NCBI GenBank assembly: GCA_037783545.1
Contig: JBBELK010000064.1
Coordinates: forward strand, 1,178,001-1,242,000
Direction: 5' to 3'
DNA: 64,000 bases
Source: Henricia sp. BOLD:AAB3569
Taxonomy: Eukaryota > Echinodermata > Asteroidea > Spinulosida > Echinasteridae
The notes beneath the pieces are model-generated. The model was given only the letters and a program-made list of their open reading frames with translations, searched no databases and was not told where the DNA came from. The position numbers were made by a program, and so were the translations under genes. This document shows, piece by piece, positions 3,425 through 49,505 of this stretch (position 1 is its first letter; each line of letters opens with the position of its first letter).

Positions 3425-3710
3425 CGGCAGGTACCACCCCAAGGACACCTAAATTGCCGAATCTGTATTCGGGTAGCGTTTACACTACAAGCGACCGTGA
3501 CGATTGCGGGGTTGAACCCTGCAATTGCGGGGTTCAACCCTACCCCAAAGGTGACTTGAAAAGGGCGAATTAGACCCGGGTCTGATCCGCCTTTTTTAAC
3601 TCACCTTTTGCGTTTACACTTATAGTGCCTACCCGGCTTCAACTCCCCTTTTTGGAAATTGCGGAGTTTGATTCGGCAAAGGCGAATTGAGTGTAAACGG
3701 GCCTATAGTG
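3425..3710. mobile_element. GTTTACACT-type MITE, family D, left-truncated
   Basis: This matches the element at 23529-23940 in inverted orientation. Shared parts are the CTGTATTCGGGTAGC segment, the GGGGTTCAACCC repeat and the terminal GAGTGTAAACGGGCC. The copy at 23.5 kb extends further, and here homology stops near 3425, where a GC-rich fragment begins. GGGGTTGAACCC occurs twice in tandem inside (about 3507-3542). Confidence 0.65.
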
Positions 3711-4608
3711 CCATTTCCCATCTTGGTGTCATCCTTTGATGTTGTTTATGAGTACAGCATCTGTTTTTGCAAAGCACTAGGATGCTTCATAATTTACGAC
3801 GAATGATGGATTGCAACTTCACAACTGGATGCACCAACAAATTTAGGAAGTGTACAAGGGCATTGCATGTTCCTTCATAACACTGTTAAACATATCGTAA
3901 ATTATAACCTGATTCAAAGTCATCGTCAATTCCAAATAAAGTGTCCAGTTTGCAATCTGGGCCCATGCAATTTCATAAGGGGTGCTAAGTGGCAAATACT
4001 GCTTAGCAAATTGTTGTGTTTAGACAAAAATGGCAGAGTAGTAGTCAAAAGTAATGGTCCAAAGTAGGCCTAATGGTCCGAAGTATAAGCCTAATGGGCC
4101 GAAAGGGGGTGATTACCGAAACCATCCAGGTTGAACTCATTTATGACAAAAATGTCCCATTAAGGGGAAAGGCCAAAAAGAAAGAAGCCGCCCATTGAGC
4201 CTGAGCTTGGAATTATAAACATCGGCTGCCAAAACTGATAACTCTGAAACTATTTCTGTCTGCCCCAGTAGTGATAATTTCCATTTGTCTACAAGCCAAT
4301 TTCATGATGTTAACAAATCACAAGTGACAAGGAGTCTTAACACACCAGGCCACTGTTTCTTCTTCTTTGGCATGAGTTGATAGACCAGTTTACAAGGGGA
4401 ATGTCTGCAATGCATAAACAAGTTGTGGCTGAGCTGAGACTGTTTATTTTTTCATTTGGGTGCAAAGATGTCCTGGTTGCTGATGGAAACTACTTGGGAG
4501 CAGTACCATTTGGAATATTGTCATGAGTCTGCCAAATGACGGGTTTTTTTGAAGAAAATAATTGATTTAAAAAACTAATTCTATTAGCTTATTGTAGGAA
4601 TACTGTCT
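3711..4608. other. Unassigned sequence with a short tandem motif
   Basis: No gene is recognised. AATGGTCC followed by AAGTA and AGCCT/GGCCT recurs about three times at 4050-4102. The rest is AT-rich. Confidence 0.35.
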
Positions 4609-4996: not shown

Positions 4997-5257
4997 TTAT
5001 CTCTATCTAGCTATTTATATAGGAGCGAGGTTTTGATATCTTGTCAAAATTTATAGAACATATTTACCAGAAATAGAAACTTGTTAATAGCCCAGAATAA
5101 AGGGGAGTTTGTAGTTTACATTCCATTATTTTATTTTATTAAAGTTTTGGTTAAGAATCTCTTTAAACAACTGTCAAAAGGATGTAAAACCTTAATTTTT
5201 TTATTAATTTAAACATATTTCAGTATGTCATGCTTTAACTACTTATTGGCTTTCCGT

Positions 5258-5353
5258 GGCTTTCCGCACTTCTGCGGAAAGCCTTTGAAACTGTTCTGAT
5301 TTTTTGGCTTTCCGCACTCCTGCGGAAAGCCTTTGAAACTGTTCTGATTTTTT
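5258..5353. repeat. Two 48-bp tandem repeats with hairpins at the array edge
   Basis: Two copies of a 48-bp unit each start with the hairpin GGCTTTCCGCA/TGCGGAAAGCC and run on through TTTGAAACTGTTCTGATTTT. The same GCGGAAAGCC word occurs in the linkers inside the adjacent array (for example near 7397, 9270 and 14041), so the 5' boundary of the array and its linkers share sequence. Confidence 0.75.
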
Positions 5354-5390
5354 TTTTTTTTTTTAGCTTTTTTTATTCTTCTCCCAAAAC

Positions 5391-6378
5391 CCCATAGACA
5401 AAGCGCATGGTCTTTCGGCCTGGCAAAATGGTCACTTGCAAAGCTCGGATCATCATCAAACTTGGTCACAACAATCACCTCATAATGAAGTACTGCACAA
5501 ATGTGTTTACATTTTGATGACGTCATCAGGTGTCAGATTACAAGCGTTTGAAATATATGGCCTTCAAATTGAAACTTCTGTAAAAATTCAACCGTTTGAG
5601 ATACAAACTTTATTATTTCGGCAATGGTCATGACTATCCAAGGTCTAAATTTCATACACAGACATTGACCTTGAATCTTGCTTCCTATTGGTCGAAAACG
5701 AGGCTGCCCTGTCATTTAAAACTGGTAGCAGATACAGAGATCGGGTCAAAAGTGTTAGTCTCAAGACCTCTTGGGCATTCCAAAAATACCAAAAGTTAAG
5801 TCGTGCCACAAAAGAGCGCCCTCTAGCGGCAAGTTGAAAAATGGCCAAAACCTATTTTGAAGAGATGTCTGTGGCGAAGTTTTTGCAAATTGGCCAAAAA
5901 TTGGTGCATATGTTCACTGAGGGTCAGTGAACATGCCCATACCTTCAAAAGTTTGATGACGTCACCAGGTGTCAAATTACACTCAGTTGAACATGCGTTC
6001 TTCTAACGGTTATATATAGAGAACGAAAAGGCCGATGGAGGTTAAATTTTGTGTTTTAGGTTTGTTGTGACTTAGTCTAATGCATATTAGCAGCAAAATT
6101 TGGTGGCGTAACGATGACGTCATCAAATAAGCCCGTTTGTGCAGCATACATTTGCCAAGGTCGTTCACTTCCTCTAATGGGCGTATGACCTTGAAACCTA
6201 GCAGGGACGTAGACGTGGTCATTAACATATAACATACCAAGTTACATTAGTGTGACGTCCTTTGTTGATTTGTTATGAATTTTTGAATCTGGCAACCTAT
6301 ACCACAGCATACACACAGTGCAGTATATACGGTGTACATAAGCATGAACAATATGCATACATCTGCACTACCCAATTT
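5391..6378. repeat. Array unit 1, type A
   Basis: Contains three TGACGTCA palindromes (near 5517, 5954 and 6114), TGACCTTGA at 5666 and 6186, and the GCGCCCTCTAGCGGC word at 5816-5830. Its 3' half is almost identical to that of unit 7, 5.86 kb downstream. Confidence 0.85.
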
Positions 6379-7468
6379 CCCATAGACAAAGCACATAGTC
6401 TATCTCGCTGCTAGAAGGGTCGCTTGCAAAGCTTGGATCATCATCAAACTTGGTCACAATAAGGAACCCATACTAAAGTACTATACCAAAGAGGTTACAT
6501 CTTGATGACGTCACCAGGGGTCAGATTACATGTGTCTGAAATTTAATGCCTTAAAAATTCAAAAATCTGTAAAAATTCAACCGTTTGAGATACAAACATT
6601 TTTGTTTCGGCAATGGTCATGACTATCCAATGTCTAAATTTCATACACAGACATTGACCTTGAATCTTGCTTCCTATTGGTCGAAAACGAGGCTGCGTTA
6701 TCATTTAAAATTGGTAGCAGATACCGAGATTGGGTCAACGTTGTTAGTCTCGGGACCCCTTGGGCATTACAAAAATACCAAAAGTTAAGTCGTCACACGA
6801 AAGAGCGCCCTCTAGCGGCGAGTTGAAAAATGGCCAAAACTTATTTTGAAGAGATGTTTGCGGCGAAGTTTTTGCTAATTGGCCCAAAATTGGTGCATAT
6901 GGTCACTCAGGGTCAGTGAACATGCCCATACCTTCAAAAGTTTGATGACGTCACCAGGTGTCAAATTACACTCAGTTGAACATGCGTTCTTCTAACGGTT
7001 ATATCTAGAGAACAAAAAGGCCGATAGAGGTCAAATTTTGTGTTTTAGGCTTGTTGTGACTTGTTCGAATGCATATTTTCAGCAAAATCTTGTGACGTCA
7101 CGATGACGTCAACAAATAAGCGCGTTTGTGCAGCATACATTAGCTAAGGTCGTTCACTTCCTCTATTGGTCATATGACCTTGAAACCTAGCAGGGACGTA
7201 GACCTGGTCATTAACATGTAACATATCAAGTTACATTAGTATGACATGCATGATTTGTTGATTTATTATGAATTTGTGAATCTTTTCACTGTGCATGTAC
7301 ATGTACACGTAGGGTATGCATTTACATTGTACAAAGTGTACGTAGTATTATACAGCATGCAGTTTTACATGCATACAAACATACAAAAAAAGAAAAGCGG
7401 AAAGCCATATGCTCTGTTATCAACAGACATACCTCTAGTTTTAGCTTTTTTTATTCTTCCGTCAAAAC
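6379..7468. repeat. Array unit 2, type B, full length
   Basis: The longest unit. It has four TGACGTCA palindromes, two of them almost adjacent near 7084-7100, TGACCTTGA at 6655 and 7175, and the GCGCCCTCTAGCGGC word at 6805-6819. Its first half is closest to unit 8. Confidence 0.85.
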
Positions 7469-8458
7469 CCCATAGACAAAGCGCATGGTCTTTCTACCTG
7501 GCAAAACGGTCACTTGCAAAGCTCGGATCATCATCAAACTTGGTCACAACAATCACCTCATAGTGAAGTACTGCACAAATGTGTTTACATTTTGATGACG
7601 TCATCAGGTGTCAGATTACAAGCGTTTGAAATATATGGCCTTCAAATTGAAACTTCTGTAAAAATTCAACCGTTTCAGATACAAACTTTATTTTTTCGGC
7701 AATGGTCATGACTATCCAAGGTCTAAATTTCATACACAGACATTGACCTTGAATCTTGCTTGCTATTGGTCGAAAACGAGGCTGCCCTGTCATTTAAAAC
7801 TGGTAGCAGATACAGAGATCGGGTCAAAAGTGTTAGACTCAAGACCTCTTGGGCATTCCAAAAATACCAAAAGTTAAGTCGTGACACGAAAGAGCGCCCT
7901 CTAGCGGCAAGTTGAAAAATGGCCAAAACCTATTTTGAAGAGATGTCTGTGGCGAAGTTTTTGCAAATTGGCCCAAAATTGGTGCATATGTTCACTGAGG
8001 GTCAGTGAACACGCCCATACCTTCAAAAGTTTGATGACGTCACCAGGTGTCAAATTACACTCAGTTGAACATGCGTTCTTCTAACGGTTATATCTAGAGA
8101 ACGAAAAGGCCAATGGAGGTCAAATTTTGTGTTTTAGGTTTGTTGTGACTTGGTCTAATGCATATTAGCAGCAAAATTTGGTGGTGTAACGATGACGTCA
8201 TCAAATAAGCCCGTTTGTGCAGCATACATTAGCCAAGGTCGTTCACTGTCTCTAATGGGCGTATGACCTTGAAACCTAGCAGGGACGTAGACTTGGTCAT
8301 TAACATATAACATACTAAGTTACATTAGTGTGACGTCATTTGTTGATTTGTTATGAATTTTTGAATCTTGCAACCTATACTACAGCATACACACAGTGCA
8401 GTATATACATGTATACGAGTGTACATAAGCATGTACAATATGCATACATCTGCACTAT
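7469..8458. repeat. Array unit 3, type A
   Basis: Four TGACGTCA palindromes. The middle part (about 7500-7940) appears identical to unit 7 at a spacing of 3780 bp, pointing to recent exchange. The GCGCCCTCTAGCGGC word is at 7894-7908. Confidence 0.85.
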
Positions 8459-9356
8459 CCCATAGACAAAGCACACAGTCTGTCTCGGTGCTAGAAGAGT
8501 CGCTTGCAAAGCTTGGATCATCATCAAACTTGGTCACAATAAGGAACCCATAGTAAAGTACTATACCAAAGAGGTTAGATCTTGATGACGTCACCAGGTG
8601 TCAGATTACATGTGTCTGAAATTTAATGCCTTACAAATTGAAAAATCTGTAAAAATTCAACCGTTTGAGATACAATCTTTATTCTTTCGGCACTGGTCAT
8701 GACTATCCAAGGTCTAAATTTCATGCAGAGACATTGACCTTGAATCTTGTTTCCTATTGGTCGAAAACGAGGCTGCCTTGTCATTTAAAACTGGTAAGCG
8801 ATGCCGAGATCGTGTCAACGGTGTTAGTCTCAGGACCCCTTGGGCATTCAAAAAATACAAAAAGTTAAGTCGTCACACGAAACAGCGCCCTCTAGTGACG
8901 AGTTGAAAAAGGAACTAAAACGTATTTTGAATTGGTCAAATGTATATTATCAGCTAAATATTGTGACGTCACGATGACGTAATCAAATAAGCGTTCCTCA
9001 AGTATACATTAACCAAGGTCGTTTACTTTCTCCATTGGTCGTATGACCTTGAAAACTATCAGGTGCCTGGACCTGGTCATTAACATGTAACATACCAAGT
9101 TACATTAGTATGACATGCATGATTTGTTGATTTATTATGAATTTTTGAATCTTGTCACTGTGCATACTGTACATGTATATGTACGGTATGTATTTATATT
9201 GTACAAAGTGTACATGTAGTATTAAACAGCATGCAGTTTTACATGCATACAAACATACAAAAAAAGAAAAGCGGAAAGCCATATGCTCTGTTATCAACAG
9301 ACATACCTCTAGTTTTTTTTTTTTTTTTTTAGCTTTTTTTATTCTTCCGTCAAAAC
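8459..9356. repeat. Array unit 4, type B with internal deletion
   Basis: Lacks about 190 bp that unit 2 has between the GCGCCCTCTAG word (8885) and the GTGACGTCACGATGACG block (8963). The same deletion is found in unit 9, so one derives from the other or both from a common parent. The word here reads GCGCCCTCTAGTGAC. A 20-base T tract near 9315-9333 sits in the linker to unit 5. Confidence 0.85.
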
Positions 9357-10349
9357 CCCATAGACAAAGCGCATGGTCTTTCGGCCTGGCAAAATGGTCA
9401 CTTGCAAAGCTCGGATCATCATCAAACTTGGTCACAACAATCACCTCATAGTGAAGTACTGCACAAATGTGTTTACATCTTGATGACGTCACCAGGTGTC
9501 AGATTACAAGCGTTTGAAATATATGGCCTTCAATATTGAAACATCTGTAAAAATTCAACCGTTTGAGATACAAACTTTATTCCTTCGGCAATGTTCATGA
9601 CTATCCAAGGTCTAACTTTCGTACACAAACATTGACCTTGAATCTTGCTTCCTATTGGTCGAAAACGAGGCTGGCTTGTCATTTAAAACTGGTAGCAGAT
9701 ACCAAGATGGAATCAACGGTGTTAGTCTCAAGACCCCTTGGGCATTCAAACAATACCAAAAGTTAAGTCGTGACACGAAAGAGCGCCCTCTAGCGGCAAG
9801 TTGAAAAATGGCCAAAACGCGTTTTGAACAGATGTCTGTGGCGAAGTTTTTGCAAATTGGCCCAAAATTGGTGCATATGTTGACTGAGGGTCAGTGAACA
9901 TGCCCATACCTTCAAAAGTTTGATGACGTCACCAGGTGTCAAATTACACTCAGTTGAACATGCGTTCTTATAACGGTTATATCTAGAGAACGAAAAGGCC
10001 GATGGAGGTCAACTTGTGTGTTTTAGGTTTGTTGTGACTTGGTCTAATGCATATTAGCAGCAAAATTTGGTGGCGTAACGATGACGTCATCAAATAAGCC
10101 CGTTTGTGCAGCATACATTAGCCAAGGTCGTTCACTTCCTCTATTGGGCGTATGACCTTGAAACCTAGCAGGGACGTAGACTTGGTCATTAACATATAAC
10201 ATACCAAGTTACATTAGTGTGACGTCATTTGTTGATTTGTTATGAATTTTTGAATCTGGCAACCTATACCACAGCATACACACAGTGCAGTATATACGAG
10301 TGTACATAAGCATGTACAATATGCATACATCTCTGCACTTCCCCCATAT
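9357..10349. repeat. Array unit 5, type A
   Basis: Four TGACGTCA palindromes (near 9484, 9925, 10082 and 10220) and the GCGCCCTCTAGCGGC word at 9783-9797. More diverged from units 1, 3 and 7 than they are from each other. Confidence 0.85.
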
Positions 10350-11248
10350 CCCATAGACAAAGCACACAGTCTGTCTCGCTGCTAGAAGGGTCGCTTGCAA
10401 AGCTTGGATCATCATCAAACTTGGTCACAATAAGGAACCCATAGTAAAGTACTATACCAAAGAGGTTACATCTTGATGACGTCACCAGGTGTCAGATTAC
10501 ATGTGTCTGAAATTTAATGACTTAAACATTCAAAAATTTGTAAAAATTTAACCGTTTGAGATACAAACTTTATTCTTTCGGCAATGGTCATGACTATCGA
10601 AGGTCTAAATTTCATACAGAGACATTGACCTTGAATCTTGCTTCCTATTGGTCGAAATCGAGGCTGCCCTGTCATTTAAAACTGGTAGCAGATACCGAGA
10701 TCGGGTCAAAAGTGTTAGTCTCAGGACCCCTTGGGCACCCCAAAAATACAACAGGTTAAGTCGTCACACGAAACAGCGCCCTCTAGTGACGAGTTGAAAA
10801 ATGGCCAAAACGTATTTTGAACAGATGTCTGTGGATACGTTTTAGCAAATTGGCCCAAGATGGGTGCATGTGTACTTTGAGGGTCAGTGAATATGCCCAT
10901 ACCTTCGAAAGATTACACTCAGTTGAAAATCATCCACTCTTTAAACGGCTATATGGCCTTGAAACCTAGCTGGTGCTTGGACCTGGTCATTAACATGTAA
11001 CATACCAAGTTACATTAGTATGACATGCATGATTTGTTGATTTATTATTAATTTTTGAATCTTGTCACTGTGCATGTACATGTACACGTACTGTATGTAT
11101 TTACATTGTACAAAATGTACATGTAGTTTTATACAGCATGCAGTTTTACATGCATACAAACATACTAAAAAAGAAAAGCGGAAAGCCATATGCTCTGTTA
11201 TCAACAGACATACTTCTAGTTTAGCTTTTTTTATTCTTCTCCCAAAAC
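10350..11248. repeat. Array unit 6, type B with a different deletion
   Basis: Only one TGACGTCA palindrome remains (near 10478). The second block and the GATGACGTCATCAAAT segment are missing, a deletion distinct from that of units 4 and 9. The GCGCCCTCTAGTGAC word is at 10776-10790. Confidence 0.85.
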
Positions 11249-12237
11249 CCCATAGACAAAGCGCATGGTCTTTCGGCCTGGCAAAACGGTCACTTGCAAA
11301 GCTCGGATCATCATCAAACTTGGTCACAACAATCACCTCATAGTGAAGTACTGCACAAATGTGTTTACATTTTGATGACGTCATCAGGTGTCAGATTACA
11401 AGCGTTTGAAATATATGGCCTTCAAATTGAAACTTCTGTAAAAATTCAACCGTTTCAGATACAAACTTTATTTTTTCGGCAATGGTCATGACTATCCAAG
11501 GTCTAAATTTCATACACAGACATTGACCTTGAATCTTGCTTGCTATTGGTCGAAAACGAGGCTGCCCTGTCATTTAAAACTGGTAGCAGATACAGAGATC
11601 GGGTCAAAAGTGTTAGACTCAAGACCTCTTGGGCATTCCAAAAATACCAAAAGTTAAGTCGTGACACGAAAGAGCGCCCTCTAGCGGCAAGTTGAAAAAT
11701 GGCCAAAACCTATTTTGAAGAGATGTTTGTTGCGAAGTTTTTGCAAATTGGCCCAAAATTGGTGCATATGTTCACTGAGGGTCAGTGAACATGCCCATAC
11801 CTTCAAAAGTTTGATGACGTCACCAGGTGTCAAATTACACTCAGTTGAACATGCGTTCTTCTAACGGTTATATATATAGAACGAAAAGGCCGATGGAGGT
11901 CAAATTTTGTGTTTTAGGTTTGTTGTGACTTGGTCTAATGCATATAAGCAGCAAAATTTGGTGGCGTAACGATGACGTCATCAAATAAGCCCGTTTGTGC
12001 AGCATACATTTGCCAAGGTCGTTCACTTCCTCTAATGGGAGTATGACCTTGAAACCTAGCAGGGTTGTAGACGTGGTCATTAACATATAACATACCAAGT
12101 TACATTAGTGTGACGTCCTTTGTTGATTTGTTATGAATTTTTGAATCTGGAAACCTATACCACAGCATACACACAGTGCAGTATATACGGGTGTACATAA
12201 GCATGAACAATCGCCATACATCTGCACTACCCCATTT
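11249..12237. repeat. Array unit 7, type A mosaic
   Basis: The leader (CTCCCAAAACCCC) and the 3' half match unit 1, while the central ~430 bp match unit 3 without visible differences. This looks like a conversion tract or double exchange. Three TGACGTCA palindromes. Confidence 0.85.
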
Positions 12238-13230
12238 CCCATAGACAAAGCACATAGTCTATCTCGCTGCTAGAAGGGTCGCTTGCAAAGCTTGGATCAT
12301 CATCAAACTTGGTCACAATAAGGAACCCATACTAAAGTACTATACCAAAGAGGTTACATCTTGATGACGTCACCAGGGGTCAGATTACATGTGTCTGAAA
12401 TTTAATGCCTTAAAAATTAAAAAAATTGTAAAAATTCAACCGTTTGAGATACAAACATTTTTGTTTCGGCAATGGTCATGACTATCCAATGTCTAAATTT
12501 CATGCAGAGACAATGACCTTGAATCTTGCTTCCTATTGGTCGAAAACGAGGCTGCGTTGTCATTTAAAACTGGTAGCAGATACCGAAATTGGGTCAACGT
12601 TGTTAGTCTCGGGACCCCTTGGGCATTACAAAAATACCAAAAGTTAAGTCGTCACACACGAAAAACCCCCCTTTAGCGGCAAGTTGAAAAATGGCCAAAA
12701 CGCATTTTGAAGAGATGTCTGTGGCGAAGTTTTTGCAAATTGGCCCAAAATTGGTGCATATGTTCACTGAGGGTCAGTGAATACGCCCATACTTTCAAAA
12801 GTTTGATGACGTCACCAGGTGTCAAATTACACTCGCTTGAACGTGCATCTTTTTAACAGCTATATCTAGAGAACGAAACGGCCGATGAAGGTCAAATATT
12901 TTGTTTCAGGTTTGTTGTGACTTGGTCTGACGCATATTAGCAGCAAAATTTGGTGGCGTAACGATGACGTCATCAAATAAGCCCGTTTGTACAGCATACA
13001 TTAGCCAAGGTCGTTCACTTCCTCTAATGGTCGTATGACCTTGAAACCAAGCAGGGACGTAGACTTGGTCATTAACATATAACATACCAAGTTACATTAG
13101 TGTGACGTCATTTGTTGATTTGTTATGAATTTTTGAATCTGGCAACCTATACTACAGCATACACACAGTGCAGTATATACATGTATACGAGTGTACATAA
13201 GCATGTACAATATGCATACATCTGCACTAT
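12238..13230. repeat. Array unit 8, B-start and A-end chimera
   Basis: Begins like unit 2 (type B) but ends with the A-type linker, so another B unit follows directly. The GCGCCCTCTAG word is degraded here (ACCCCCCTTTAGCGGC, about 12665-12680), the only unit in which this site is clearly lost. Four TGACGTCA palindromes. Confidence 0.85.
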
Positions 13231-14083
13231 CCCATAGACAAAGCACACAGTCTGTCTCGGTGCTAGAAGAGTCGCTTGCAAAGCTTGGATCATCATCAAA
13301 CTTAGTCACAATAAGGAACCCATAGTAAAGTACTATACCAAAGAGGTTAGATCTTGATGACGTCACCAGGTGTCAGATTACATGTGTCTGAAATTTAATG
13401 CCTTGCAAATTGAAAAATCTGTAAAAATCGAACCGTTTGAGATACAATCTTTATTCTTTCGGCACTGGTCATGACTATCCAAGGTCTAAATTTCATGCAG
13501 AGACATTGACCTTGAATCTTGTTTCCTATTGGTCGAAAACGAGGCTGCCTTGTCATTAAAAACCGGTAAGCGATGCCGAGATCGTGTCAACGGTGTTAGT
13601 CTCAGGACCCCTTGGGCATTCAAAAAATACAAAAAGTTAAGTCGTCACACGAAACAGCCCCCTCTAGTGACGAGTTGAAAAAAGACCAAAACGTATTTTG
13701 AATTGGTCAAATGTATATTATCAGCTAAATATTGTGACGTCACGATGACGTAATCAAATAAGAGTTCCTCAAGTATACATTAACCAAGGTCGTTTACTTT
13801 CTCCATTGGTCGTATGACCTTGAAAACTATCAGGTGCCTGGACCTGGTCATTAACATGTAACATACCAAGTTACATTAGTATGACATGCATGATTTGTTG
13901 ATTTATTATGAATTTTTGAATCTTGTCACTGTGCATACTGTACATGTACATGTACAGTATGTATTTATATTGTACAAAGTGTACATGTAGTATTATACAG
14001 CATGCAGTTTTACATGCATACAAACATACAAAAAAAGAAAAGCGGAAAGCCATATGCTCTGTTATCAACAGACATACCTCTAG
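13231..14083. repeat. Array unit 9, type B, last unit
   Basis: Nearly identical to unit 4 at a spacing of about 4.77 kb, including the shared deletion. The array stops at the end of the B-type linker, where the usual TTTAGCTTTTTTTATT start of the next A unit is replaced by a TTTCTTTCTTTTTC tract. Confidence 0.85.
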
Positions 14084-14168: not shown

Positions 14169-14308
14169 ATCAAATGATTAATTTACTATTAACTTTTGTT
14201 GTTTGAAATGAGATATCCAAAAAGTCAACTGATGGTCTGAAAGGTTTTTATTCGAACTTATTCACATTTATTTGTCTAAATAAAATCTGCCCTCGGCCAC
14301 GCTTTAAT

Positions 14309-16904: not shown

Positions 16905-18074
16905 AGGCCTTTTCCCACTACCCACCTCCGACCCGGGTAACTTTTCTACCCGGGTAGCGGTAAATAACCCGGGTAACATTTAACCCGGAGTGTCTTTTCA
17001 CACGACAAGCGTTAACCCGGAGAAACACTTACACGGGTCGTCTCTTACACGGGTACAAAAGCGACCCTTTTCCCATGGCATTTTTGCATGCGCACGTACC
17101 CGGGTACACCAATCAGCACAATACCCAGAAACCATTGCGTGTGGAAAATCGATCGATCGATCAGGCTGCGCGTGCACACACAAACATGGCGGACGACACA
17201 GCAACATCGCTGGCAATTTTTGCTGTTAATATTTCGCATGTTTACTCAACAGGTCGAGTCGGGTGTTCATGAATGAATAACGCGCGCGATCGATAATATT
17301 TATTAATGTGTGCTTTGTCACTGGCCCCACGCGTATTTTGTGTACACTATCTTCAGAAGAGTACCAGTTTGACAGTGCCATTCAAGCGCGGGCGCACTTA
17401 GACTGGTTCCATCTACATATTCCACATAGGAGAATATAAGGACAGGTAAAGGGCACTTCATTTTGATCTGTGATTGATCGTCTTTGCGCGTGCGCATTGT
17501 ATGCTTTATATTTAAAAATTGGCGAAGCCCTTTGCTTCATGCAATGTACTTTATTTACATTTGGATATGTTCGACACGCACGGCAGGGTTACAATTGTCA
17601 ATGCAAAATATACGCACTTACTAAAAAAAGTATAATAATAACCACGTGACCACGGGCAGATTTCTGCCCGTCATGGCCGCCCTTTACCGATCCTTATATT
17701 TTTTTGCAATAAGCAATAGGATCGGGAAATAATCTAGGGCGCACTTGTAACCTTTGACCCAATAATTATTGCGGCAAGAATTTAACTCGCTAAATAGCAT
17801 ACCCGGGTAGGCTATTGTCGTCGTTTACCACGACAAACGTTAACCCGGAAAATCGTCTCAAGGTCGCCGTTAACCCCGAGATTGGTGGGTTAACCCACCT
17901 CCCGAGCAGGGCTAGAAATTATCCGGGTTAAGTGGCATTTTTGGCCAGATAACCCGGGTAATACGTAACCCCGATATTTGCCGTGGGAAACGAACCCTTA
18001 ACCCGGGTAATCTCGGGGTAAAATTTTTCTGTTACCCGGGTTATCTCGGGTTAAAGTGCCGTGGGAAAAGGCCT
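16905..18074. mobile_element. Family F MITE copy 1, 1170 bp, with nested element
   Basis: The termini are AGGCCTTTTCCCAC and its complement, flanked by TTG on both sides (16902-16904 and 18075-18077). Both arms are built from repeated TTACCCGGGT, GTTAACCCG and CCGTGGGAAA modules. A second copy lies inverted at 46611-48113. Relative to that copy this one carries an extra 338-bp insertion (17399-17736) and a 36-bp segment near 17349. A 3-bp duplication suggests a PIF/Harbinger-like origin. No transposase is seen. Confidence 0.85.
17399..17736. mobile_element. Nested 338-bp element with 9-bp target duplication
   Basis: GGGCGCACT occurs directly before (17390-17398) and after (17737-17745) this segment, and the inverted family F copy has a single uninterrupted GGGCGAACT at the same place. 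The ends form an imperfect inverted repeat: TAGACTGGTTCC against TAGATTATTTCC, then ATATAAGGA and GGTAAAGGGC in both arms. A 9-bp duplication fits Mutator-like elements. Confidence 0.75.
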
Positions 18075-18077
18075 TTG

Positions 18078-19374
18078 GATGTATCTGTTTGGCATGTGCC
18101 CTTGAGCATAACATTTTTCTCTCCTTCCAGCAGTAAATGTGTACCTGCAAGGGTTGCCCCCCTTAGGGCGCAAACATGTACCTTCAAGAAGTTGTGCCCA
18201 TTGTCCTGGGTAGTAATGTTAAACACTGTATTATTATAACTACAAGGTAGATGCACTATAAAGCCCATAAAAGTACAATTGTAAATTGCATTAATCCTTT
18301 TTTTTTATAGATAAAACTCATTGTGGACATCGCAACAACAAAAATTCCTGTCAAGTACACATATGCATGTACTTTTCCTGAGTCATGGCTAGTTTTACCA
18401 TGTGAAAAAAAACCCTGTGCAGACAACTGAACTCTCATTCAAAGTTTTGATGAGCGAATAAATTTACTTTGAACATGGTCACTAGGCCAAACTGTGTCAA
18501 ATGAATGCAACTGCAGATGTTGGGAAAACAGTTTTCAACCTTTTAACTTTTGTTGACGGAACACACAAAATAGCACTAAATTTTGTCATTCCTCTTCAGG
18601 TCACCATAGTTTTGCTGAAAAGTTAGGTAGGGCTGCAGACTGTGTAAAATGTAGCATTGCACCTTCCTGTGGTACATACATGTAGTAAACCTTTCTGTCT
18701 TGGGGGAAGGGGACAATGACGAGGAGAGCCTTAGGGGACAGCATTGGGAGGGATGGTTAATTCATTTTGTCCATTATGCAATTTGAGTTGAGAACTCTGT
18801 CAATGTGTAGAATCGGACCAAGTGTGCACATTATTCAAATGAATTATCACAATTGCATTTTTTCCCTAGCATTTGAAAGGGTCTCCAAGACATTTTAAAG
18901 TCTGAGTGGTTGTGCCTTGGGGGCAAACTTGCATGGCTGCCCGCATCAAATGTAAAAAATCTTGATGTCGATTCATCATCCAGCAAATGTTTCCAAAAAT
19001 GTACTTAGTCATCATGCCTCCCCACGGTCAAATTTCAGAGCTGCCACTCAAAATTGGGGATGTAAGCGCACAACTGTTGGCGACTCGGTAATTGAAGAAG
19101 AGCAATGAATTTGCCAAACACAAACATTTTCGTTATTAATTTCTGAAAATAATACCACTTGAAAGTTGAAATGCTGTCTGGCCTGTCTGATTTCACCAAG
19201 CATTTCATGATTTGAGGTACCTACATGTACTAATGTTGGTTGGCTCAAGTTACACAGAGTAGTGTGCACAATTTTGTGAAGCTATTTGAAACAATAGGGG
19301 TGACTCATCTTCTGAAGCAAATTTTAGATTTTAAATTAATTTCCTTAACCCTGGTATCTTTCCCATTTTGCATT
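18078..19374. other. Unassigned sequence
   Basis: No gene, inverted-repeat ends or tandem repeat recognised. Short frames on both strands look like chance openings. Confidence 0.4.
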
Positions 19375-36849: not shown

Positions 36850-37038
36850 AGCGTGGACCCTCGACAACCGTGGGTTGTAAAACTGTGGTTCTCAAACATA
36901 TACATGTAGGTTTGAGAAAAAAATTTCTCAAACCTATATATATGGTTCACAAACCTATATAGGTTTGAGAACCAACTATAATTATTGGTTCTCAAACCTA
37001 TATAGGTTTGAGAACCAACTTATAATTATTGGTTCTCA
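36850..37038. repeat. Cluster of GGTTCTCAAACC palindromes
   Basis: GGTTCTCAAACC or its complement occurs repeatedly. A 34-bp perfect palindrome at 36985-37018 is centred on TATA, and a one-mismatch copy lies just upstream (about 36943-36976). Confidence 0.75.
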
Positions 37039-37043
37039 AGCTT

Positions 37044-46396: not shown

Positions 46397-47062
46397 CTAC
46401 AAACTGTTCTTTGTGTATAATATCATAGGTTGTTTCTGCAATCTGTTCAGTTGCATTTTACAAAACACATCCAGACAGAAAGTGTTACATTTGTAACTTT
46501 CACTTTTTGAGCTTGAGAAAACCAGTGCAAGGTATTAAGACAAAAAACTGCTTGTTCCATTAAGATCAAAATTATATTTCGTATGAGATGCGACATTACA
46601 CTGCCTTCTAAGGCCTTTTCCCACGGCACTTTAACCCCGAGATAACCCGGGTAACAGAAAAATTTAACCCCGAGATTACCCGGGTTAAGGGTTCGTTTCC
46701 CACGGCAAATCTCGGTGTTACGAATTACCCGGGTTATCTGGCCAAAAATGCCACTTAACCCGGGTAATTTCTAGCCCTGCTCGGGAGGTGGGTTAACCCA
46801 CCAATCTCGGGGTTAACGGTGACCTTGAGACGATTCTCCGGGTTAACGTTTGTCGTGGGAAACGACGACAATAGCCTACCCGGGTAGGCTATTTAGCGAG
46901 TTAAATTCTTGCCGCAATAATGATTGAGTCAAAGGTTGCAAGTACAAAAGTTCGCCCGCGCTTGTGTACAACCAAATACGCGTGGGGCCAGTGACAAAGC
47001 ACACATCGATAAATATTATCAATCGCGCCCGTTATTCATTCATGAACTCCCGACTCGACCTG

Positions 47063-49316: not shown

Positions 49317-49505
49317 ATTTTGCCCCAAAACCACTTCGCCCTGAACCATTTTGCCCTGAACCACGGCCTGCGCACGAAGTGGATTTGGGCGAAGTGGCAT
49401 TTGGGCGAAGTGGCATTTGGGCGATGTAGTGTTTGGACGAAGTAGTGTTTGGACGAAGTAATTTGGGGCGAAATGGCACTTGGGCGAAATGGTTTTGGGG
49501 CGAAT
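49317..49505. repeat. GGGCGAAGTGG minisatellite-like inverted repeat
   Basis: About eight degenerate copies of TTTGGGCGAAGTGGCA run from 49376 to 49505. The first 60 bp contain the same motif on the other strand (CCACTTCGCCC, CCATTTTGCCC), so the whole forms a repeat-rich hairpin. Confidence 0.7.

Follow-up and report, generated by a model that had tools for sequence, protein, structure and literature searches.

A tandem array in the sea star Henricia is the core of a non-autonomous Helentron and carries recurrent words resembling host factor sites

Non-autonomous Helentrons (HINEs) have been described as elements with palindromic subterminal repeats, a 3′ palindrome and T-rich targets, some copies of which contain tandem repeats (Thomas and others 2014, PMC4067079; this and the other papers are cited here from parts of their text). 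HINEs with satellite arrays are already known (PMC4067079, PMC7492417, PMC8268682; reviewed in PMC12628747), and in Crassostrea gigas Helitron-labelled monomers reach 2091 bp (PMC7492417, PMC8268682). In Caenorhabditis, Helitrons act as a mobile response element, and the binding of HSF-1 has been shown (PMC6927752). The present study concerns a tandem array at positions 5354–14083 of a 64,000-nucleotide stretch of the genome of Henricia sp. BOLD:AAB3569 (contig JBBELK010000064.1, positions 1,178,001 to 1,242,000; hereafter the window). The array is the tandem core of a HINE with T-tracts at both ends. Its repeated words, which look like binding sites for transcription factors, may well represent a conserved cis module that probably serves host bZIP factors; the probability of this reading is put at roughly 0.6.

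The element, its dispersal and its relatives

The array comprises nine units of approximately 0.85–1.06 kb in the order A-B-A-B-A-B-A-B-B (four A and five B), and A1 and B1 are 89% alike over 902 columns. It is apparent from its flanks that these units belong to a larger element. The 5′ end (5246–5331, forward strand, as are all of the features of the element) consists of TT followed by the palindromic subterminal repeat GGCTTTCCGC-ACTYCT-GCGGAAAGCC, which is present in two tandem copies (5258–5283 and 5306–5331) with a partial copy before the first. TTTGAAACTGTTCTGATT and a T-tract (5332–5364) link these palindromes to the first unit. The 3′ subterminal repeat, GCGGAAAGCC (14042–14051), is the inverse of the 5′ GGCTTTCCGC; it extends from 42 to 32 nt ahead of the element end. 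The hairpin CTGTT-ATC-AACAG (14059–14071) lies 12 nt from that end, and the terminus CATACCTCTAG (14073–14083) is followed by the T-rich TTTTCTTTCTTTTTC. In described HINEs, subterminal inverted repeats are situated 2–4 nt from the 5′ end and approximately 38–60 bp from the 3′ end (PMC4067079). Palindromic subterminal inverted repeats are likewise found near both ends here, and the hairpin falls within the 8–35 bp from the 3′ end at which a HINE palindrome is sought. Position 14083 is the exact last base of the CTCTAG terminus, while the true left end is at approximately 5246, outside 5354, because the 5′ palindromes are part of the element. The series GCGGAAAGCC, CTGTT-ATC-AACAG, CATAC(C/T)TCTAG and T's occurs at the right end of the array and terminates three of the four other B units.

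A canonical Helitron (5′ TC, 3′ CTRR, A/T insertion) was considered and rejected: the 3′ CTAG fits, but the TT-palindrome and the T-tract flanks do not. Elsewhere in the window, at 36943–37039, a 43-bp unit repeated 2.2 times contains a palindrome (TGGTTCTCAAACC-TATA-TAGGTTTGAGAACCA) similar to the HINE 5′ end and may mark another such element.

Searches of the 740-Mb genome (counts are given as strand+strand) reveal that the family of the window's element, family 1, is widely dispersed. Its 29-mer core is present in 883+862 = 1,745 exact copies, its 3′-end 45-mer in 654+624 copies (≤3 mismatches) and its 5′ palindrome 28-mer in 483+475 copies (≤2 mismatches), whereas the reversed-pattern control gave 0 in each case. 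An earlier reading of the window from its sequence alone (the sequence-only reading) had loosely likened the array to a macrosatellite such as DXZ4; a stand-alone array of that kind is not borne out by a dispersed transposon with this number of core copies. The best 40 of 1,377 candidate full-unit matches, window included, are 99–100% identical and lie on 28 contigs, and the spread is therefore considered to be recent. T's were present at the 3′ junction in all of the 30 loci inspected at the 3′ end of family 1, though T's belong to the search pattern. Twenty-four of these loci pass via the T's into a new unit and one into a 5′ hairpin fragment; the remaining five leave family 1 and have differing flanks, three entering unrelated sequence (L046, L068 and L069) and two a second HINE family (L065 and L067). 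The 5′ palindrome, in two or three copies, also precedes the arrays at L006, L012, L035 and L039, in the last of which the left break falls within a reversed family 1 unit. A further array lies on contig C3 (approximately 2128900–2137615). Core copies are densely clustered, in both orientations, over approximately 115 kb at C8:1328557–1443883.

The genome also contains autonomous relatives. Helitron_like_N has at least 150 matches, many of them within frames longer than 3,000 aa. One frame, on the minus strand of contig C741 (38037–43997) and cut on its N-terminal side, contains DUF6570, Helitron_like_N, PIF1 and a C-terminal endonuclease (Exo_endo_phos), the combination of Rep, PIF1 helicase and C-terminal endonuclease that characterizes Helentrons. 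The interval between two Rep matches on C741 (17082 and 41715) was used to predict further junction positions, which were then fetched. Junctions of a 3′ end with a T-tract, of the type seen in family 1, were found at 5367, 30000 and 54633, all spaced, like the Rep matches, by 24,633 bp. Two of the three end in CATACCTCTAG followed by the T-tract, as does the window element, and the first has a related, different end. Directly inside each T-tract is a related array of approximately 350-bp units with pairs of TGACGTCA. We infer from the equal spacing, with fetched sequence covering part of the length, that frame, array and ends constitute one element, a 24.6-kb Helentron that is itself repeated in tandem. 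Its last 11 nt, CATACCTCTAG, are common to family 1, but the hairpin differs and GGCTTTCCGC is absent from the locus L075; a HINE and its partner are expected to share 11 bp or more of the subterminal repeat as well as 80% of the final 60 bp (PMC4067079). Long palindromes were observed between the C741 Rep copies (L075 1502–2281, approximately 780 bp, 77%; 3666–3904, 239 bp, 90%), which are perhaps nested inverted-repeat elements.

Two further families were available for comparison. Family 2, the second HINE family noted above, was taken from L067 (from position 1541) and L065 (1–1500), at both of which it adjoins the 3′ end of family 1. It has a 5′ palindrome GGCTGTTCC..GGAACAGCC (in L067), a hairpin TGTTCGTTTTCAACGAACA and 414-bp units, and holds CACTTCCGGTCGAAACCGGAAGTG palindromes and TGACCTTTGACCT. 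Four loci were fetched with the probe TGACGTCA-N6-TGACGTCA: L001 (C93) and L004 (C162) represent family 3, and L002 and L003 matched none of the three families at E 1e-6.

The words and their conservation

The palindrome TGACGTCA, a cAMP response element (CRE), occurs 28 times in the window, and 27 of these copies are within 5354–14083; 100 shuffles of the window gave a mean of 0.74 and a maximum of 3. The array likewise contains 17 of the 19 window copies of TGACCTTGA, all on the same strand (shuffle mean 0.76), and all seven exact copies of GCGCCCTCTAG(C/T)G, on a single strand (shuffle mean 0.00). The approximately 27 CRE palindromes and the repeated TGACCTTGA words reported by eye in the sequence-only reading are therefore confirmed, both being far in excess of the shuffles. 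One CTCF-like word per unit had also been reported. Its orientation is indeed the same throughout, but it is intact in seven of the nine units rather than all of them, because the other two carry altered forms of GCGCCCTCTAG(C/T)G, at 12666 and 13657. With CCASYAGRKGGCRS (14 IUPAC positions), which we take to be the CTCF consensus, the supposed likeness to the CTCF core extends to 13 positions in each of the seven exact copies and never to 14; the full 14-nt consensus has no match in the window.

Forty-six factor-site consensuses were counted in the arrays of the three families against 400 shuffles, and kept if no more than 5% of the shuffles gave a count as high; repeats of a motif inside one family are not independent. 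CRE was in excess in all three (7, 4 and 6 in families 1, 2 and 3, respectively). Nuclear-receptor (NR) monomer (4) and CTCF-short (2) were also in excess in family 1, DR1 (5), ETS (4), CTCF-short (2) and TTACGTAA (2) in family 2, and ETS (2) in family 3; for all of these, 0–1 of the 400 shuffles were as high. A single SP1 match in family 3 was reached by 0 of 400. Weaker excesses, with 2–14 of the 400 shuffles as high, were noted for a p53 half and TAACGGTT in family 1 and for YY1 and TTACGTAA in family 3. Of the listed motifs, it is the CRE, nuclear-receptor, ETS, CTCF-short and TTACGTAA words that stand out in the related arrays. In the rest of the window (14201–64000), TGACGTCA shows no excess over shuffles.

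The CREs are arranged in recurrent ways. The sole exact pair in the array, TGACGTCA-CGA-TGACGTCA (7093–7111, forward strand), has an 11-bp period; pairs that differ by one letter are found at 8964 and 13735, and looser ones at 6104, 10071, 11962 and 12954. TGACGTCA-N3-TGACGTCA, with the same 11-bp spacing, occurs at 7,734 sites genome-wide (control 1), compared with 226 sites for N4 (control 1) and 12 for N6 (control 7). A 25-nt box, TGACGTCA-YCAGG(T/G)GTCA(A/G)ATTACA, is present in 15 copies in the array, the first at 5518–5542 (forward strand). Genome-wide, the box (TGACGTCAYCAGGTGTCAAATTACA, ≤2 mismatches) has 6,430+5,885 copies (control 0), and viral contigs contained no exact match for a 27-nt box. 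In families 2 and 3, TGACGT(C/A)A-N3-TGACGTCATCAG-GTGTCAAATTACA recurs, and an exact CRE stands at a fixed distance from 11 of the 17 GTGTCAAATTAC-like halves (≤2 mismatches).

For the conservation analysis, divergence or identity in word columns was compared with that outside and ranked against shifted word masks. The strongest comparison is that between the A units of family 1 and family 2, in which 30 word columns were 93% identical, against 63% elsewhere, and 5 of 407 mask shifts were as good. The first part of this test (TGACGTCA 8/8, TGACCTTGA 7/9) gave 24 of 327 shifts as good (20 of 327 with B units), and the second (TGACCTTGA 7/9, GCGCCCTCTAGCG 13/13) gave 6 of 171 (6 of 171 with B). 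The longest runs identical between the two families are AGCGCCCTCTAGCG and TGATGACGTCATCA. Within family 1, where loci found through the CTCF-like word were left out and deleted B units count twice, word columns of the 105 A stretches diverged by 0.0112 and the remaining columns by 0.0278; 38 of 895 shifts reached as low a value, and 6 of 895 when one stretch per contig was used. Variation at CpGs in A units was also lower for the 6 pairs inside words (0.005) than for the 23 pairs beyond them (0.048; p 0.008 in a rank test); in B units the values were 0.055 and 0.082 (p 0.20). In family 3, the first CRE ranked 14 of 343. These results indicate that the words are genuine and in register across units, and that between families 1 and 2 they are better kept than their surroundings. 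The sequence-only reading had named, as an outcome that would speak against a function, words that mutate as fast as the rest of the unit. That outcome is contradicted by the comparison of families 1 and 2 and by the A units, though not by the B units or the window units taken alone, where no significant effect was found, and family 3 is mixed.

A number of observations weigh against a conserved module or the wider reading of the element. The 143 B stretches gave 0.0311 in words and 0.0545 outside, which is not significant (69 of 1005 shifts as low; 151 of 1005 with one per contig). Nor is the comparison of substitution rates in and out of words among the window's own units, which the sequence-only reading had suggested (176 of 895 shifts as low for A, 157 of 1005 for B). 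Because the A, B and window tests differ, the signal within family 1 is regarded as present in A and weak overall. In family 3, 89 of 343 windows were as good as the second CRE and 148 of 314 as good as the whole box, which thus gains no support from comparison inside the family. Between families 1 and 2, the CTCF-like word was compared with a family 2 copy matching at 13/13, the other copy matching at 12/13, and several of the nine identical runs of at least 8 nt fit no listed site (TCAACCGTTTGA, TTCCAAAAATA, GTGTCAGATTA). In family 1, moreover, the CRE pair is separate from the GTGTCAAATTACA half: a single CRE accompanies the GTGTCA(A/G)ATTACA half 15 times in the array, and the pair lies elsewhere in the unit, once in exact and six times in degenerate form. 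Other motifs exceed 40 shuffles at 14201–64000 as well (CACGTG 16 vs 7.9, SOX 12 vs 4.0, FOX 23 vs 11.8, CTCF-short 2 vs 0.5, NR monomer 2 vs 0.5). The genome-wide counts represent copies, not independent events, and they are inflated if, as Rep matches with equal scores at largely parallel positions on C898 and C1007 suggest, both haplotypes are present in the assembly. No empty site was found for family 1, and its exact autonomous partner was not found, no search having been made beyond the C741 Helentron. The 24,633-bp repeats on C741, finally, could be a segmental duplication; their neighbouring junction regions are 97–99% alike.

Units of the array and other repeats in the window

The units follow one another without gaps on the forward strand. 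A1 (5365–6378) contains TGACGTCA at 5518, 5957 and 6115, TGACCTTGA at 5666 and 6186, GCGCCCTCTAGCG at 5816 and CCTATTGG at 5684. B1 (6379–7442) contains the double CRE (7093/7104) and terminates in the 3′ terminus (subterminal repeat at 7397, hairpin at 7414–7426, CATACCTCTAG at 7428–7438) and four T's. A2 (7443–8458), A3 (9331–10349) and A4 (11223–12237) alternate with B2 (8459–9330), B3 (10350–11222) and B4 (12238–13230), and B5 (13231–14083) completes the array. Internal deletions were observed in three of the B units, B2, B3 and B5. The 3′ terminus of B2 (9271–9312) is followed by an 18-T tract, that of B3 (11178–11219) reads CATACTTCTAG, and B5 bears the 3′ end of the element itself. B4 is B-like with an A-like right end and is without a 3′ terminus; the altered CTCF-like words at 12666 and 13657 are in B4 and B5, respectively.

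The units are too long for Tandem Repeats Finder, which is limited to periods of up to 500 and does not report the array. A protein-coding explanation was set aside, as the open frames span only 91–132 aa from stop to stop (in a list starting at 90 aa), and Rfam gave no match at gathering scores. Outside the array, one open frame (KLSGLSGIFGQITRVIRN...) occurs as a pair in opposite orientation, at 17916–18239 (forward strand) and 46447–46770 (reverse strand), and is probably a dispersed repeat. A minisatellite with a 16-bp unit in approximately eight copies lies at 49375–49504, adjoining one with a 15-bp unit.

Candidate roles and comparison with described systems

The following sequence of events would account for these observations. 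Copies would have been spread to many loci by rolling-circle transposition, using the enzymes of autonomous Helentrons in the same genome, and units may have been joined head to tail when termination was missed at the 3′ hairpin or by repeated insertion at T-tracts; such array-forming routes have been discussed for HINEs and for the oyster elements (PMC4067079, PMC8268682). The TGACGTCA, TGACCTTGA and GCGCCCTCTAG words would constitute a cis module that has counterparts in family 2, and the C741 Helentron array contains a counterpart of its CRE part. In the putative order of the module, CREs come first, frequently as pairs with a spacing of one helical turn and with the GTGTCAAATTACA half directly behind one of them; nuclear-receptor-like, CCAAT-like and CTCF-like words follow. 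The excess conservation between families suggests that the words are in use, most likely as binding sites for bZIP factors of the host (CREB/ATF) and their partners. Such binding would hold the DNA of the element accessible or transcribed in cells that permit its movement, and would scatter thousands of enhancer-like word clusters as a by-product. A simple promoter role is not obvious, because the Helentron frame is on the minus strand and the array lies beyond its C-terminus; a role in enhancement, accessibility or replication fits the module better.

Three other explanations were weighed. The words could have been fixed in an ancestral unit and carried along neutrally with the transposon, unused by any factor. 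The youth of the copies (99–100% alike among the best 40 matches) means that most letters would be kept anyway, non-word blocks are kept between families as well, and the non-significant B-unit and window tests and the mixed family 3 are in keeping with this explanation. It does not, however, account readily for the difference between 93% and 63% identity that only 5 of 407 mask shifts equalled, for the reduced variation of CpGs in the words of A units (though not of B units), or for the 3-nt spacing of CRE pairs, which far outnumbers N4 and N6 genome-wide while the spacers vary; neutral carriage is therefore judged unlikely. The main functional rival assigns the double TGACGTCA and the GTGTCAAATTACA half to the transposon's own machinery, as iterons or single-strand hairpins for the Helentron Rep/helicase, in which case the likeness to host sites would be coincidental. 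The 11-bp direct period, the palindromic words, the presence of the pair immediately internal to the T-tract in the C741 Helentron and the extension of conservation beyond the CRE itself are all consistent with iterons. On the other hand, the signatures that Thomas and others propose as necessary for transposition are the subterminal repeats and the stem-loops rather than any internal repeats (PMC4067079), and Rep binding leaves the host-consensus matches of the other words (NR, ETS, CTCF-short) unexplained, so that this role appears rather improbable.

The remaining explanation, that of a CTCF-type insulator or DXZ4-like macrosatellite, can be given very little credence. It draws on the single CTCF-like word in seven of nine units, always in the same orientation, on the identity of that word at 13/13 and 12/13 positions with two family 2 copies, and on the 3,013+3,045 copies of AGCGCCCTCTAGYG genome-wide (controls 0 and 2). 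The word nevertheless reaches at most 13 of 14 consensus positions, is lost in two units and, in B units, is roughly as variable as the remaining sequence (0.045 vs 0.0545), and the arrays are on many contigs instead of forming one large macrosatellite. A conserved module for host bZIP factors is accordingly preferred. A broader proposal is put forward tentatively, as the less probable case: an entire Helentron lineage of this genome, autonomous and non-autonomous, may be built around a conserved host-factor module of CREs, typically in pairs spaced by exactly one helical turn and then followed by GTGTCAAATTACA, with NR, ETS and CTCF-like words, which would respond to cAMP- or stress-type signals and make more than 7,700 double CREs available as ready-made enhancers.

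HINE arrays have so far mostly been described as satellite carriers. If they contain a conserved, signal-responsive module, rolling-circle elements would possess a testable control region in their interior, and thousands of double-CRE clusters would have been distributed across a 740-Mb genome. This would tie satellite formation and the control of transposons to regulatory rewiring, in a manner comparable to Helitrons and heat shock in Caenorhabditis. No report combining Helitron, CTCF and CREB was found in the open-access library searched, nor was one of CRE-based words, with fixed pair spacing, that recur both in HINE families and in the array of a Helentron.

DXZ4 is a single X-linked locus with larger units and bona fide CTCF sites. 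It resembles the Henricia array in having one CTCF-like word per tandem unit in the same orientation, but here the arrays are dispersed and mobile, and the CTCF matches extend to 13 of 14 positions. The HINEs of Metaseiulus and DINE-1 of Drosophila are closer: they have a 3′ palindrome, a T-rich target and, in some cases, tandem repeats at the centre, they occur in clusters and have autonomous relatives of the Rep/Helicase/Endonuclease type, and the Metaseiulus HINE also has palindromic subterminal repeats near both ends (PMC4067079). The element in this study differs from them in its central unit of approximately 1 kb (a 2-kb A-B dimer), in its long arrays and in its CRE-based words, common to another HINE family and the array of an autonomous element. 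Cg_HINE and the Helitron-associated satellites of Crassostrea gigas are likewise dispersed satellite arrays inside non-autonomous Helentrons (PMC7492417, PMC8268682). Factor-like words conserved between families, as in Henricia, were not seen in the text considered from those papers; the term 'transcription factor' is absent from the main text of PMC7492417, and PMC8268682 was not searched for it. DINE-1-like elements of Drosophila miranda are also of Helentron type and are a source of MSL binding sites, although their use there is in dosage compensation, with a different protein and motif (PMC4067079). The Helitrons of Caenorhabditis with heat-shock elements provide a further parallel, being rolling-circle elements dense in sites of a host-factor type, autonomous copies included (PMC6927752). 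They differ in being Helitrons with sites for HSF-1, the binding of which has been shown, whereas the Henricia elements are Helentrons with putative CRE, NR and ETS sites.

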